Shown: piece by piece, positions 34,008-38,730 of the stretch | Numbering within the stretch: the stretch's first letter is position 1 | Layout: each line of letters starts with the position of its first letter | Assembly: GCF_016428905.1 (NCBI RefSeq) | Contig: NZ_JAELTQ010000022.1 | Location: forward strand, 1-48,814 | DNA from: Dyella sp. ASV24 | GTDB lineage: Bacteria > Pseudomonadota > Gammaproteobacteria > Xanthomonadales > Rhodanobacteraceae | Direction of reading: 5' to 3' | Length of the DNA: 48,814 nt | Notes under the pieces: model-generated | Told to the model about the DNA's origin: nothing | The model's input: only the letters and a program-made list of their open reading frames with translations | Database searches by the model: none | Program-made: the position numbers and the translations under genes

Positions 34008-34223
34008 CGGTATCCGAAGGGCGGCGGAGTGGGAGGCGCAGTGTTGCAGCCCGGTATCTGCCTCGTAAATCCTTGGGTTGCTAACACTTCCGGCCAGTGG
34101 CTGTAGCCCGGTCCGCGGCGTAGCGTGAAGAAGCTGGGTCCGAGGGAGCAGCGCCCACAGGACAACGACGTCTCCAGGGGACATGGGTATCGCCCGGCCA
34201 TTCCAACCTCTGGGAGCCATGTC

Positions 34224-35015
34224 ATGAACAAGCCACTGTCCGCAGGCCTATGCCTGCTTTTGCTGTTTCCGCTGGGCGCGATGGCCGACGGGCCGTTCGA
34301 CGGCACCTGGAAGATCGACATGAGCAAGGTGCAGATGCCCAAGAAGCCTGACGTGCTCGTGCTCAAGGACGGCATGTATGCGTGCAACACCTGCGTGCCG
34401 CCGGTGAGCATCAAGGCCGATGGCCAGGATCATCCGATTACCGGGCATCCCTATCTCGATTCCATGGCGATCCAGGTGGTGGACGCGCATACCGTCAAGG
34501 AGACCGACAAGAAGGGCGGCAAGGTCGTCGCTACCACCACCACGACCGTGACGCCTGATGGCAAGGCGGCGCATTTTGAGTTCAGCGACAGCAGTAACAC
34601 CAATGGCGCGCCAGTGACCGGTAGTGGCGAGCTCAAGCAGGTTGCCGCCGGGCCGACTGGTTCCCATGCGATATCCGGCTCCTGGGTCACGGCCACTATC
34701 GCCAACATGTCCGACAACGGCACCGAGCTCACCTACAAGGAAGAGGGCGGCGTGCTGGACATGACCACGCCCACTGGTCAGTCGTATGCAGCCAAATTGG
34801 ACGGCACCGAGGCACCGTATAAGGGCGATCCGGGCATCAACAGCGTCACCGTAAAGCAGGCCGGCAAACTGTCGATGGTGGAAACCGACAAGCGGGACGG
34901 CAAGGTGGTGGGTGTGCTCACGTCCACGGTTTCGGCGGATGGCAAGCACATGAGCATGATTTTTGACGACAAGCTGCGTAACCGCACCATGTCCTTCGTG
35001 GCTGTGAAGCAGTGA
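34224..35015 (+). CDS. Exported protein of unknown function
   Basis: The start ATG 34224 has GGGAG 7 bases upstream, giving 263 residues with a signal peptide (MNKPLSAGLCLLLLFPLGAMA). I do not recognise the family. The mature part begins DGPFDGTWKIDMSK, a phrase common in lipocalin-like beta-barrel proteins, and contains a C-x-x-C (YACNTCVPP, about 51-59). Two similar halves are visible: the sequence ETDKKGGKVVATTTTTVTPDGK (about 93-114) recurs as ETDKRDGKVVGVLTSTVSADGK (about 220-241), so it is probably an internal duplication. It is isolated from the metX operon that follows. Confidence 0.75.
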   Translation: MNKPLSAGLCLLLLFPLGAMADGPFDGTWKIDMSKVQMPKKPDVLVLKDGMYACNTCVPPVSIKADGQDHPITGHPYLDSMAIQVVDAHTVKETDKKGGKVVATTTTTVTPDGKAAHFEFSDSSNTNGAPVTGSGELKQVAAGPTGSHAISGSWVTATIANMSDNGTELTYKEEGGVLDMTTPTGQSYAAKLDGTEAPYKGDPGINSVTVKQAGKLSMVETDKRDGKVVGVLTSTVSADGKHMSMIFDDKLRNRTMSFVAVKQ

Positions 35016-35110
35016 ATGCTTCTGCCGCGTCCGGTGCAGCTTAGGCTGGGCGCGGAAAGCCCGTGGTTTCAGGCGAAACCTTCTATTTTTAGATGAAAAG
35101 GTCGATGGCT

Positions 35111-35134
35111 AGATGCATAGACGTTTAGACGTCT
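35111..35134 (+). promoter_or_regulatory. Three tandem 8-mers resembling MetJ boxes
   Basis: AGATGCAT (35111-35118), AGACGTTT (35119-35126) and AGACGTCT (35127-35134) abut without spacing. AGACGTCT is identical to the enterobacterial MetJ box, and tandem 8-bp repetition is how MetJ binds. The array ends 2 bases before the -35 hexamer, where a bound repressor would block RNA polymerase. MetJ is not a typical Xanthomonadales regulator to my knowledge, so another methionine regulator (for example an ArsR-type SahR-like protein) may be the binder. Confidence 0.6.
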
Positions 35135-35135
35135 A

Positions 35136-35164
35136 TTGACACGGTCATTCGCGGCCGTTAGATT
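35136..35164 (+). promoter_or_regulatory. Sigma-70 promoter of the metX operon
   Basis: A perfect -35 TTGACA (35136-35141), a 17-bp spacer and a good -10 TAGATT (35159-35164) predict transcription starting near 35171. The aptamer helix P1 begins at 35173, so the transcript starts almost directly with the riboswitch. Confidence 0.88.
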
Positions 35165-35172
35165 CCTCCCTA

Positions 35173-35285
35173 CTCATCGAGACCGGCGGAGGGACAGGCC
35201 CTTTGAAGCCGGGGCAACCTGCGGAATTTTCCGCGACGGTGCCAATTCCTGCGGTAACGCCCTAGGGCGCACGCCGCGAGATGAG
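35173..35285 (+). ncRNA. SAM-I (S-box) riboswitch aptamer
   Basis: The conserved core of the class I SAM aptamer is readable throughout: GGAGGGACAGGCCC, TTGAAGCC, GGCAACC and GGTGCCAATTCCTGC. Helices are P1 CTCATC (35173-35178) with GATGAG (35280-35285), P2 CCGGC (35183-35187) with GCCGG (35208-35212), inner P2 GGG/CCC, P3 GCGGA with TCCGC (35221-35234) and P4 GCGG (35251-35254) with CCGC (35274-35277). SAM binding stabilises P1. It precedes metX, as expected for methionine biosynthesis. Confidence 0.96.
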
Positions 35286-35364
35286 GGCAAATCCGCACCG
35301 CCGCGCCTCGTGCCGGCCGTGTGTTGCCCGCCTCTCCGGTCCGCAGGTCGATGCCGACCGGAGA
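35278..35364 (+). promoter_or_regulatory. Riboswitch expression platform that sequesters the metX ribosome binding site
   Basis: A perfect 9-bp hairpin, TCTCCGGTC (35333-35341) with GACCGGAGA (35356-35364), buries the Shine-Dalgarno GGAGA that lies 8 bases before ATG 35373. The competing partner is the 3' side of P1: 35278-35290 (GAGATGAGGGCAA) can pair with 35324-35336 at 11 of 13 positions, which would break the hairpin. No T-tract follows, so control is translational. SAM bound gives P1 and a hidden ribosome site (off); SAM absent gives an open site (on). Confidence 0.8.
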
Positions 35365-35372
35365 AGAGCCAG

Positions 35373-36401
35373 ATGTCCAGCCAGCCGCAAACAGCCCCGT
35401 CCGTCACACCCGCCCCCGCCGTGGTGTTTGGCGGCATGCGGCCGGACCTGACCACCCAGCGCTGCACCCGCCGCCTGGTCATCACACCCAAGTACGGCAG
35501 CGCGCCCTGCGAGCTGGAAGTGAGCTACTTGTGGTGTGGCGCGCCGGACGCTCCGACCGTGATCGTGCAGGGCGGCATCTCGGCTACCCGCGACGTGGTG
35601 GCACTGGACGACGAAGCCGCTCCCGGCTGGTGGCAGGCCCAGGTGGGCCGTGGGCAGCCGCTGGATCTGGATCGCTTCCGCGTGCTCTCCATTGACTGGA
35701 TCACCCCGGCCAGCCTTGCTGGCGTCCAGGCCGTATCCAGCGAGGATCAGGCCGATGTGCTCGCCGCGCTGGTGGAGGCGCTGGGCATCAACCGCGTGCA
35801 CGCCTTTATTGGCTCGTCCTATGGCGCAATGGTCGCGCTGGCCTTCGCCGCCCGCCATCCGTATGCCCTGGGTCGCCTGGTGCTGCTGGCCGGTGCGCAC
35901 CGGCCGCATCCGCTGGCAACGGCGCAGCGCTCGGTACAGCGCGGCATCGTGCGGTTGGGGTTGGAGAGCGGTCAGGCCGACCAGGCGCTGGCCTTGGCCC
36001 GCCAGCTCGCCATGACCACCTATCGCGGCAGCGAGGAGTTCGCCAAGCGCTTTACCGCCGCACCGGAGTTCCGCGACGGCCGGTTCCACTTTCCGGTGGA
36101 GGATTACCTCGAACACGCAGGGCGCCGCTTCGTCGAGCGTTTCGACGTGGAGCGCTTCCTTGCCCTGTCCGAATCGATCGACCTGCACGACGTGACGCCC
36201 GAACAGGTCGCTGCGCCCGCCACGCTGATCGGCTTCCCGTCCGACCGCCTGGTGCCGCTGGCTGATCTGTGCGAGTTGCAGCGCCGCCTGCATGGCCCGG
36301 CCACGCTGGAAGTGGTCGAGTCGCCCTACGGCCACGATGCTTTCCTCAAGGAAACCGACCGCCTCGCGCCGCTGCTGCGCGATGCGCTGGCCGGTTGTTG
36401 A
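35373..36401 (+). CDS. metX: Homoserine O-acyltransferase (MetX family)
   Basis: The start ATG 35373 follows the sequestered GGAGA site and gives 342 residues. It is an alpha/beta hydrolase-fold acyltransferase with nucleophile S149 (G147-S-S-Y-G151), acid D291 (FPSDRLVPL) and H321 (YGHDAFL). It activates homoserine for methionine synthesis. Xanthomonadales MetX enzymes are often succinyltransferases despite belonging to the acetyltransferase family, so the acyl donor should be left open. It is the first gene of metX-metB-hom, 38 bases before metB. Confidence 0.93.
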   Translation: MSSQPQTAPSVTPAPAVVFGGMRPDLTTQRCTRRLVITPKYGSAPCELEVSYLWCGAPDAPTVIVQGGISATRDVVALDDEAAPGWWQAQVGRGQPLDLDRFRVLSIDWITPASLAGVQAVSSEDQADVLAALVEALGINRVHAFIGSSYGAMVALAFAARHPYALGRLVLLAGAHRPHPLATAQRSVQRGIVRLGLESGQADQALALARQLAMTTYRGSEEFAKRFTAAPEFRDGRFHFPVEDYLEHAGRRFVERFDVERFLALSESIDLHDVTPEQVAAPATLIGFPSDRLVPLADLCELQRRLHGPATLEVVESPYGHDAFLKETDRLAPLLRDALAGC

Positions 36402-36439: not shown

Positions 36440-37648
36440 ATGAGCGACACCACCGTCCCCTGTACCCCGCCGGGCTTGAACACCCGGGCCGTGCGCGCCG
36501 GCATCGAGTCCGATACCCAGCATGGCGCCGTCGTGCCGCCGTTGCATCTGTCCACCAACTACGCGTTCGAAGGCTTCGGCAAGAAGCGCGCCTATGACTA
36601 CTCGCGCAGCGGCAACCCTACGCGTGATCTCCTGGGCGAAGCCTTGGCCGAACTGGAGCAGGGCGCGGGCGCCGTGGTGACGGCCAGCGGTATGGCGGCC
36701 GTGGCGCTTGCCTTGGAACTGGTGCCAGCGGGCTCGCTGGTGCTTGCCGCGCACGATTGCTACGGCGGCACCTGGCGCCTGCTGGACGCCTGGGCGAAAA
36801 AGGGTCGGTTCCAGGTCAAGTTCGTCGACCTCACGAACAGCCATACGCTGGCCGAAGGCCTGGCGTTGAAGCCGTCGCTGGTGTGGGTGGAAACGCCGTC
36901 GAACCCGCTGCTGCGCATCACCGACATCCGCCATGTGGCGCAGGCCGCGCACGCGGTGGGCGCGTTGGTCGTGGTGGACAACACCTTCCTGTCGCCCGCC
37001 CTGCAGCAGCCGCTGACGTTGGGCGCCGACGTCGTGGTGCACTCCACCACGAAATACATCAACGGCCACAGTGACGTGGTGGGCGGTGCTGTCGTCGCAC
37101 GCGATCAAGCTGTGGCGGATCAGCTCAAGTGGTGGGGCAACTGCAATGGCCTCACCGGTGCGCCGTTCGACAGCTTCCTCACCTTGCGCGGCCTGCGTAC
37201 GCTGAACGTGCGTCTTCGTCAGCACCAGGAGAACGCTGTTCGTATCGCGGAACGTTTGGACGGCCATGCGGCCGTGCGCAAGGTGTATTACCCCGGTCTT
37301 GAAAGCCACGCCGGCCACGCGCTTGCAGCGCGTCAGCAGCTGGGTTTCGGTGCCATGCTGAGCTTCGAGATTGAAGGCGGCGAGGAGCAGGTGGCAGCCT
37401 TTGTGGAAGGCGTTCAGTACTTCTCGCTCGCCGAGTCACTGGGCGGTGTGGAAAGTCTGGTGGCGCATCCCGCCTCGATGACGCATGCATCCATGGCGCC
37501 CGAAGCGCGCCGTGCGGCAGGCATCGCCGATACGCTGTTGCGCTTGTCGGTGGGTATCGAAGACAGCGATGACCTGTTGCGTGATATCGACGCCGCATTG
37601 GTGCGCGCCGAGGCAGCCGCCCACCTCAAACGCCGGGTGAGTGCATGA
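36440..37648 (+). CDS. metB: Cystathionine gamma-synthase / O-acylhomoserine thiol-lyase
   Basis: The start ATG 36440 has GGAGA 7 bases upstream, giving 402 residues. It is a PLP enzyme of the Cys/Met metabolism family. Schiff-base lysine K205 lies in HSTTKYINGHSDVVGG, and other family motifs are YSRSGNPTRD (about 54-63), SGMAA, VVDNTFLSP and ESLGGVESLVAHPASMTH. It joins cysteine to the acylated homoserine made by MetX to give cystathionine. Direct sulfhydrylation cannot be excluded from sequence. It overlaps hom by ATGA. Confidence 0.93.
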   Translation: MSDTTVPCTPPGLNTRAVRAGIESDTQHGAVVPPLHLSTNYAFEGFGKKRAYDYSRSGNPTRDLLGEALAELEQGAGAVVTASGMAAVALALELVPAGSLVLAAHDCYGGTWRLLDAWAKKGRFQVKFVDLTNSHTLAEGLALKPSLVWVETPSNPLLRITDIRHVAQAAHAVGALVVVDNTFLSPALQQPLTLGADVVVHSTTKYINGHSDVVGGAVVARDQAVADQLKWWGNCNGLTGAPFDSFLTLRGLRTLNVRLRQHQENAVRIAERLDGHAAVRKVYYPGLESHAGHALAARQQLGFGAMLSFEIEGGEEQVAAFVEGVQYFSLAESLGGVESLVAHPASMTHASMAPEARRAAGIADTLLRLSVGIEDSDDLLRDIDAALVRAEAAAHLKRRVSA

Positions 37649-38730
37649 GCGCGGTGCTGGCGGCGGAGGCTGCGAGCGCATCGAAATCACAGGAGTCGCC
37701 CGCTATCGCAGCAGTCCTGCTGGGCACGGGCGTCGTCGGTGGCGCATTTCTCAAATTGCTCAATACGCCGGCCGCTGGATCTATCCGGCTGGTCGGCGCC
37801 GCGAATTCACGCCGTCAGCAGACGCAGACAGAACAGTTGGCCGATCGCACCTTGCGCGAAAAGCTCAAGATGCACGGTGATGCGCGCAATGACGGTGTCT
37901 TGCTGGGCGCACTCGACGCTCACGATGCCTCCGTAAAGGTGATCATCGACGCGACCGCCAGCAGCACGCTGGCCTTGCGTCATGCGGAATGGCTGGCAAG
38001 CGGCTATCACGTTGTCACGGCCAACAAGTCGCTGGCAGGTGGTGATCTGCCGGGTTGGCGGACGCTGCAGGCAGCGTTGGCGAATGGTGGCCGCTATGGT
38101 GATTCCGCCACGGTCGGGGCAGGGCTGCCGGTGATCTCCACGTTGCGTCGTCTGCGTCAATGCGGCGATGCGCTGCTGACGCTCGAAGGCGTGTTCTCCG
38201 GATCGCTGTCGTACCTGTTCAACCAATATGACGGTAGTCAGCCGTTCTCCGCGCTGCTGCGCCGGGCGCGTGAACTGGGCTACACCGAACCCGATCCGCG
38301 TAGCGATCTTTCCGGCGAAGACGTGGCGCGCAAGCTGCTCATCCTTGCGCGATGCGCAGGTTTTGCACTGCGTCCGGACGAAGTGGAGGTCGAGAGCCTG
38401 GTGCCGGAGAACCTTCGCGGCCTCGACGTGGAAGCCTTCCTGTCACGCCTTGAGGAACTGGACGGCCCTCTCGCCACACGCTTCGCCGAAGCGAAGGCTC
38501 GCGGCGGTGCGCTGCGTTTTCTCGCGCGCCTCAACCAGCGTGGGCGTGCTCGCGTCGGCCTGGTGGAAGTGCCGGCCACGCATCCGGCCACGCGGCTCTA
38601 TGGCACTGACAATCAGTTTGCACTCAGCACGACGCGCTACAACACGCAGCCTTTGGTGATCCAGGGGCCGGGTGCGGGGCCGGAAGTGACAGCGCAGGCG
38701 CTGTTGGGGGATGTGCTGGCGCTTGTTTGA
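37645..38730 (+). CDS. hom: Homoserine dehydrogenase
   Basis: The start ATG 37645 overlaps the metB stop in an ATGA quartet. The 361-residue protein has the NAD(P)-binding motif G27-T-G-V-V-G32 and the family sequences VVTANKSLAGG (about 128-138) and GVFSGSLSYLF (about 184-194). GYTEPDPRSDLSGEDVARKLLILAR (about 211-235) contains the catalytic Asp/Lys region. It has no aspartokinase domain and no ACT domain, resembling the C-terminal half of ThrA/MetL. It makes homoserine, the precursor used by MetX, so the operon covers three adjacent steps and should all be under SAM control. Confidence 0.93.
   Translation: MSAVLAAEAASASKSQESPAIAAVLLGTGVVGGAFLKLLNTPAAGSIRLVGAANSRRQQTQTEQLADRTLREKLKMHGDARNDGVLLGALDAHDASVKVIIDATASSTLALRHAEWLASGYHVVTANKSLAGGDLPGWRTLQAALANGGRYGDSATVGAGLPVISTLRRLRQCGDALLTLEGVFSGSLSYLFNQYDGSQPFSALLRRARELGYTEPDPRSDLSGEDVARKLLILARCAGFALRPDEVEVESLVPENLRGLDVEAFLSRLEELDGPLATRFAEAKARGGALRFLARLNQRGRARVGLVEVPATHPATRLYGTDNQFALSTTRYNTQPLVIQGPGAGPEVTAQALLGDVLALV

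Follow-up and report, generated by a model that had tools for sequence, protein, structure and literature searches.

A candidate translational SAM-I riboswitch before metX-metB-hom in a Dyella relative, with a platform predicted to exchange strands with its aptamer

The metX leader and the leaders compared with it

The window analysed here, a stretch of 48,814 nucleotides, carries a SAM-I aptamer upstream of the methionine-synthesis operon metX-metB-hom (Table 1). The aptamer had been placed before metX by a first-pass annotation made from the letters alone, and the RF00162 search confirms this placement, with a match that spans model positions 1-108, the full length of the model, against a gathering score of 44.4. 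It is the single RF00162 match in the window's genome (5.63 Mb), and at least one match was found in 217 of the 299 genomes searched of the same order; some genomes of two other families of the order have two each (G004, G016, G034, G108, G113). Measured over the best segments, the closest named MetX proteins are those of Dyella sp. AtDHG13, at 94 percent, and of Dyella japonica DSM 16301, at 93 percent, and we therefore regard the host as a Dyella relative. Dyella jiangningensis SBZ 3-12 has two metX loci in a single record (L144 and L145, CP007444.1), separated by about 0.3 Mb when counted over the ends of the record, which may be a true duplication or an assembly artefact.

A consensus scan found one promoter-like site, compared to 0.1 in shuffles, and the site ends directly before the aptamer, so that the transcript would start at about 35170, at the aptamer itself. 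A terminator scan found no intrinsic terminator-like site between the aptamer and metX (35171-35372). The single terminator-like site in 34900-35450 lies upstream of the leader, a hairpin with a T-rich tail at 35065-35080, 3' of an upstream open reading frame (34125-35015) for which no NCBIfam match at E 0.001 was found.

Table 1. Positions of the leader elements and operon genes in the window
Feature	Positions	Strand	Evidence
Promoter, sigma-70-like, TTGACA-17-TAGATT	35136..35164	+	consensus scan, 10/12
SAM-I aptamer, RF00162	35171..35287	+	cmscan 83.4 bits, E 2.5e-18
P1 5' strand CATCGA, predicted ON partner of 35348-35353 (H1)	35175..35180	+	folding
J3/4-P4 5' strand CCTGCGG, predicted ON partner of 35341-35347 (H2)	35248..35254	+	folding
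Anti-sequestor 5' arm (P4 3' / P1 3' strand and downstream bases)	35273..35290	+	duplex swap test, constrained fold
Hairpin enclosed by the anti-sequestor, predicted in both states	35294..35323	+	constrained fold
Anti-sequestor 3' arm, with 8/9 anti-SD arm bases	35324..35340	+	swap test, constrained fold
Anti-SD arm TCTCCGGTC of the sequestor hairpin	35333..35341	+	read from sequence; SD-covering helices in relatives
Anti-aptamer motif CCGCAGG-TCGATG, all except the first base in the SD hairpin loop	35341..35353	+	motif counts, pairing tests
SD arm GACCGGAGA, with SD GGAGA at 35360-35364	35356..35364	+	read from sequence; folding
metX, homoserine O-succinyltransferase, ATG at 35373	35373..36401	+	NF006449 373 bits, cut-off 296
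metB, cystathionine gamma-synthase	36440..37648	+	TIGR02080 603 bits, cut-off 504.55
hom, homoserine dehydrogenase	37645..38730	+	7/7 matches to homoserine dehydrogenase models, all under their own cut-offs

The comparison set began with 131 loci, made up of 30 from the RF00162 search, 100 further listed places and the window's own. A MetX match was present at 114; the 17 with none in the fetched stretch (e.g. L002, L004, L007, L012), whose aptamers may control other genes, were left out. The best 80 of 407 named loci, chosen by MetX similarity alone and irrespective of taxonomy, were added, and 79 of these together with 70 leaders of the window's family gave 149 leaders, of which 117 were unique. 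Eight with divergent platforms were dropped by eye before testing (L003, L013, L031, L040, L041, L076, L077, L088), and the family tests used the remaining 109 unique leaders in 19 sequence clusters.

Competing helices and a loop motif complementary to the aptamer

The first-pass annotation had also described a 9-bp hairpin without mismatches that covers the metX Shine-Dalgarno (SD) sequence, the position of GGAGA, and an alternative pairing of 35278-35290 with 35324-35336 at 11 of 13 positions. All three readings hold: the two arms of the hairpin are exact reverse complements, the SD lies where it was placed, and the mismatches in the alternative helix, the anti-sequestor, are T35282/C35332 and A35284/G35330. 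In the predicted folds of the window leader the SD is sequestered by this perfect-armed platform hairpin. The anti-sequestor is longer than first noted: 35273-35276, in the P4 3' strand, pair with 35337-35340 with C35277 bulged, and the whole helix consumes eight of the nine anti-SD bases in the constrained fold and seven of the nine in the duplex.

Covariation of the two helices among relatives had been proposed as a check, and because platform lengths differ we exchanged strands between leaders instead of counting covariation by column, in a test that keeps composition and ignores the tree. For the SD hairpin, strands scored -17.0 kcal/mol with their own partners and -14.0 kcal/mol with those of other clusters, the native pairs being better in 18 of 19 clusters (109 leaders); for the anti-sequestor, the values were -22.3 native and -18.5 kcal/mol exchanged, with the native pairs better in 17 of 19 (109 leaders). 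Three control strand pairs were better in their native form in 11, 11 and 5 of the 19 clusters. The check thus came out in favour of both helices in this form, and a stricter test of the SD hairpin with contiguous helices, on at most eight leaders per cluster, favoured the native strands in only 12 of 19. In 95 of the 109 leaders the SD is covered by a helix of six or more pairs; in cluster 8 the contiguous-helix search found none in 7 of 18. The arms vary by lineage, for example TCTCCGGTC/GACCGGAGA, GGTTCTCCG/CGGAGAACC and GGTTCC/GGAACC. At the level of sequence, it is confirmed that both helices match their own strands beyond chance in related leaders.

Between the two arms of the SD hairpin lies a motif whose first part, CCGCAGG, is complementary to CCTGCGG of the aptamer (helix H2) and whose second part, TCGATG, is complementary to CATCGA of the P1 5' strand (helix H1). 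By eye, a motif related to CCGCAGG..CGATG between the anti-SD and the SD is common to the clusters and weakest in L023, L045, L068 and L153. CGC[AG] occurs in 103, CGC[AG]GG in 88 and exact CCGCAGG in 56 of the 109 leaders; the longest match to the J3/4-P4 strand in a 36-base stretch has at least seven pairs in 93, and by longest helix the two complementary segments stand in nested order in 97. The 67 substitutions from CCGCAGG, which are counts over related leaders and not 67 independent events, divide into 39 C-to-T or A-to-G changes that still pair with CCTGCGG and 28 that break H2. The J3/4-P4 and P1 5' strands are nearly invariant across the 109 leaders, which places H1 and H2 beyond the reach of true covariation. 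Among three leaders with CATCAAGA as their P1 strand, L065 keeps seven H1 pairs, L153 has no helix longer than four, and the best match of L150 lies outside the motif. The aptamer, the operon, the SD hairpin and the conserved complementarities are what sequence and comparison together bring out.

P3 of the window's aptamer also contains CCTGCGG (35218-35224), a copy that is a potential competitor for the loop motif; in the predicted folds P3 remains intact. Two other readings of this region were abandoned. The loop ATG at 35351 was considered as a second start, but the metX ATG lies 22 from it in L001 and 24 in L009, and the frame is therefore not kept; pairing of GATGCC with the bases after P1 looked inconsistent among clusters by eye.

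Predicted folding of truncated and full-length transcripts

All structures in this section are predictions from fold energies that ignore SAM, tertiary contacts and the kink-turn. In window transcripts starting at 35165, the probability of P1 is 0.02 at end 35340 and 0.00 at ends 35347-35358, and the helices of the ON fold reach 0.97-1.00 at ends 35353-35358 with P1 at 0.00. Starting at 35171 instead, they reach 0.97-0.99 over the same ends, with both P1 and P4 at 0.00. The proposal that P1 and the anti-sequestor exclude each other is therefore borne out in the predicted nascent transcripts. The SD hairpin takes over as its second arm emerges: from start 35165 it is predicted at 0.42 at 35364, 0.92 at 35368 and 0.995 at 35375, and from start 35171 at 0.998, with ON at 0.00-0.001, once the SD arm is complete at 35364. 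In folds ending at 35375 the metX AUG is unpaired in the minimum free energy (MFE) structure (probability about 0.5), and once the fold extends past the leader into coding sequence, its U and G are paired, their partners in the MFE structure being aptamer bases.

At full-length equilibrium without ligand, the window leader is predicted with the SD hairpin at 0.995 and ON at 0.004. The SD hairpin wins at full length without SAM, so in this energy model the ON fold could only be transient, under kinetic control, or else assisted. The energy gap between the two folds depends on the transcript start. From 35165 the ON fold lies 2.2 kcal/mol above OFF, but the SD is there held by 35166-35169, which are upstream of the likely transcript start; from 35171 the difference widens to 7.3 kcal/mol, and the ON fold has two SD bases paired. 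The saddle between the folds is about 18 kcal/mol above ON from both starts, an upper bound only, obtained by a heuristic direct path.

Across the 109 leaders, transcripts cut just after the motif (with a fallback cut in four, L045, L054, L148 and L161) pair the J3/4-P4 strand, which belongs to the SAM pocket, with the platform at a predicted mean of 0.946, above 0.5 in 109 of 109, with P1 at 0.00. Cluster means are 0.915, compared to 0.177 for shuffled platforms (12 shuffles each, at most eight leaders per cluster), and the native platform is higher in 19 of 19 clusters; against the same shuffles P1 is lower in 19 of 19 and pairing of the P1 5' strand with the platform is higher in 18 of 19. 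When shuffling is restricted to the last 13 bases, the J3/4-P4 pairing falls from 0.92 to 0.23, in 19 of 19 clusters (at most three leaders each). Five of the divergent leaders (L013, L031, L041, L077, L088) were also folded and none exceeded 0.5. Among full-length transcripts, 58 of the 109 leaders have ON above 0.5 and 84 have the SD paired above 0.5, with ON at 0.00 in the window's own cluster of 15 leaders; in these predictions the two full-length folds are nearer balance across the family than in the window.

Strand exchange, related switches and rival explanations

We consider it probable that this SAM-I riboswitch controls translation of metX-metB-hom, and that without SAM the platform dismantles the aptamer by strand exchange. 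With SAM present, P1 and P4 would hold, leaving the anti-SD arm 35333-35341 available for pairing with the SD, and metX would be switched off. With SAM absent, 35273-35290 (the P4 3' / P1 3' strand and the bases after it) would pair with 35324-35340 and so consume the anti-SD arm, while 35341-35353, the segment that would later become the SD hairpin loop, would pair with two aptamer strands, CCTGCGG of J3/4-P4 and CATCGA on the 5' side of P1. That SAM turns metX translation off is what we infer from the Xanthomonas campestris work and from the anatomy of the leader; the model presumes as well that the aptamer binds SAM and that the ON fold would live long enough to matter. Since the SD emerges only after the nested ON fold is finished, it could be transcribed in an unpaired state and remain unpaired for some time. 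More tentatively, and with somewhat less than even confidence, we suggest that the SD hairpin loop may serve as a decoy copy of the aptamer P4 3' and P1 3' strands, by which the full exchange would take place before the SD is transcribed and control of metX would be kinetic.

In the Firmicutes S-box switches (e.g. yitJ), competition runs through the P1 3' strand. These Firmicutes SAM-I switches have the RF00162 aptamer in common with the Dyella leader. According to the 2020 report on the Xanthomonas campestris switch, SAM-I Xcc, those functionally characterised before it use an intrinsic terminator (PMC7270179), whereas the Dyella leader has no terminator-like site. A 2007 survey names translation attenuation as most common outside the Firmicutes, apart from exceptions that it states, and describes SAM-I as sporadic in gammaproteobacteria (PMC2258182). 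A protein regulator, SamR, has been proposed for Xanthomonadales (PMC4239095). The first-pass remark that a gammaproteobacterial translational form is less described finds no support in view of SAM-I Xcc (PMC7270179) and that survey (PMC2258182): as a kind, the translational SAM-I switch is not new and is known from Xanthomonas. SAM-I Xcc is reported to act on translation and also to sense uncharged initiator tRNA, with the SD sequestered with and without SAM and with P1, P4-6 and P7a reorganised (PMC7270179). As described there, it has in common with the Dyella leader the SAM-I aptamer, the three genes of the met operon, the lack of a terminator, an SD hairpin without SAM, and P1 and P4 among the reorganised stems (PMC7270179). 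Within the set of papers searched, we found none on a SAM-I riboswitch in Rhodanobacter or a SAM riboswitch in Dyella. What seems new here is the longer anti-sequestor, which takes seven or eight of the nine anti-SD bases, together with an SD hairpin loop complementary to two aptamer strands; the SAM-free model, in the form set out in PMC7270179, may already contain part of this pairing.

The switch might instead work as SAM-I Xcc does, its SD hairpin closed with and without SAM and opened by uncharged initiator tRNA on the anti-SD, with SAM alone setting part of the response. Without ligand the SD is paired in the window's full-length fold, which agrees with the published account of Xcc (PMC7270179), and the Dyella initiator tRNA has U as its first base and U-A-CCA at its end, in line with features given for Xcc in that report. 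Since from the likely start the ON fold is 7.3 kcal/mol less stable than OFF, this explanation gains and both strand exchange and its decoy form lose in likelihood. Against it, the order of anti-SD and motif is reversed in comparison with eight leaders of one genus that we took as Xanthomonas, since they carry AUGGC and then CC at the spacing given in PMC7270179 (172-176, 181-182). In Dyella the anti-SD lies 5' of the motif and is part of the anti-sequestor, whereas in the Xanthomonas-like leaders it lies 3' of a related motif, CCGCGAAGCTCGATGG. The anti-AUG of SAM-I Xcc (AUGGC) is not retained either: it is absent in the window, where GATGCC stands at the corresponding place and is not complementary to CAGATG. 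Nor does the initiator tRNA stand out as a simple pairing partner of the platform: 9 of 31 other tRNAs (taken near 30 of 46 matches) pair better, and 16 of 31 do for the anti-SD region, and direct tRNA pairing was dropped as a discriminating signal; plain pairing as the mechanism of SAM-I Xcc is argued against by its own authors (PMC7270179). On balance we think an Xcc-like mechanism unlikely, while giving it some weight. Separately, the 5' end UGCGG of the Dyella initiator tRNA (L220:1472-1548) could pair with the loop CCGCA.

In the Xanthomonas-like leaders CTCGATGG matches the P1 strand CCATCGAG over eight bases, so that the stronger part of the motif faces the P1 strand there and J3/4-P4 in Dyella, and J3/4-P4 pairing exceeds 0.5 in only one of the eight. 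In the 36 leaders of the Xanthomonas-like family (nine loci were skipped in this wider folding), it exceeds 0.5 at the best cut in 22, compared to 6 of 36 for shuffles (two each), and P1 5' strand pairing with the platform has a mean of 0.65 at the same cuts, a value uncontrolled by shuffles; among 14 other leaders the J3/4-P4 counts are five, and one for shuffles. L127 and L029, which are outside the window's family, have a GATGG segment preceded by a CCGCAGG-like motif, and their J3/4-P4 strands are predicted to pair with the platform at 0.71 (shuffle 0.36) and 0.98 (shuffle 0.49).

Whether the loop is kept for another binder, a protein or a tRNA, its complementarity to the aptamer being a by-product of a GC-rich leader, has to be weighed against the same data. 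Its conservation with almost no covariation in H1 and H2, and the 28 of 67 motif substitutions that break H2, speak for such a binder; that two adjacent segments match two aptamer strands, nested in 97 of the 109 leaders by longest helix, that pairing is lost with shuffled loops in 19 of 19 clusters, and that the Xanthomonas-like leaders have the eight-base match to the P1 strand all argue against it, and we regard this explanation as improbable. Premature (Rho-dependent) termination or mRNA decay as the main control, with SD masking secondary, recalls the small effect of about 24 percent on a transcriptional fusion reported for Xcc (PMC7270179), but with no terminator-like site in the leader (by a scan for the intrinsic type) and SD hairpin strands that match within the family in the swap test, it is very unlikely.

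The strand-exchange model would extend the experimentally known translational SAM-I switch of Xanthomonas to a neighbouring family whose platform is rewired. It offers a precise model of strand exchange for a translational riboswitch, naming the bases that would take the SAM pocket apart and the stage of transcription at which they would act, and it could help to account for the switching on of a leader in which the SD is predicted to be paired at equilibrium.
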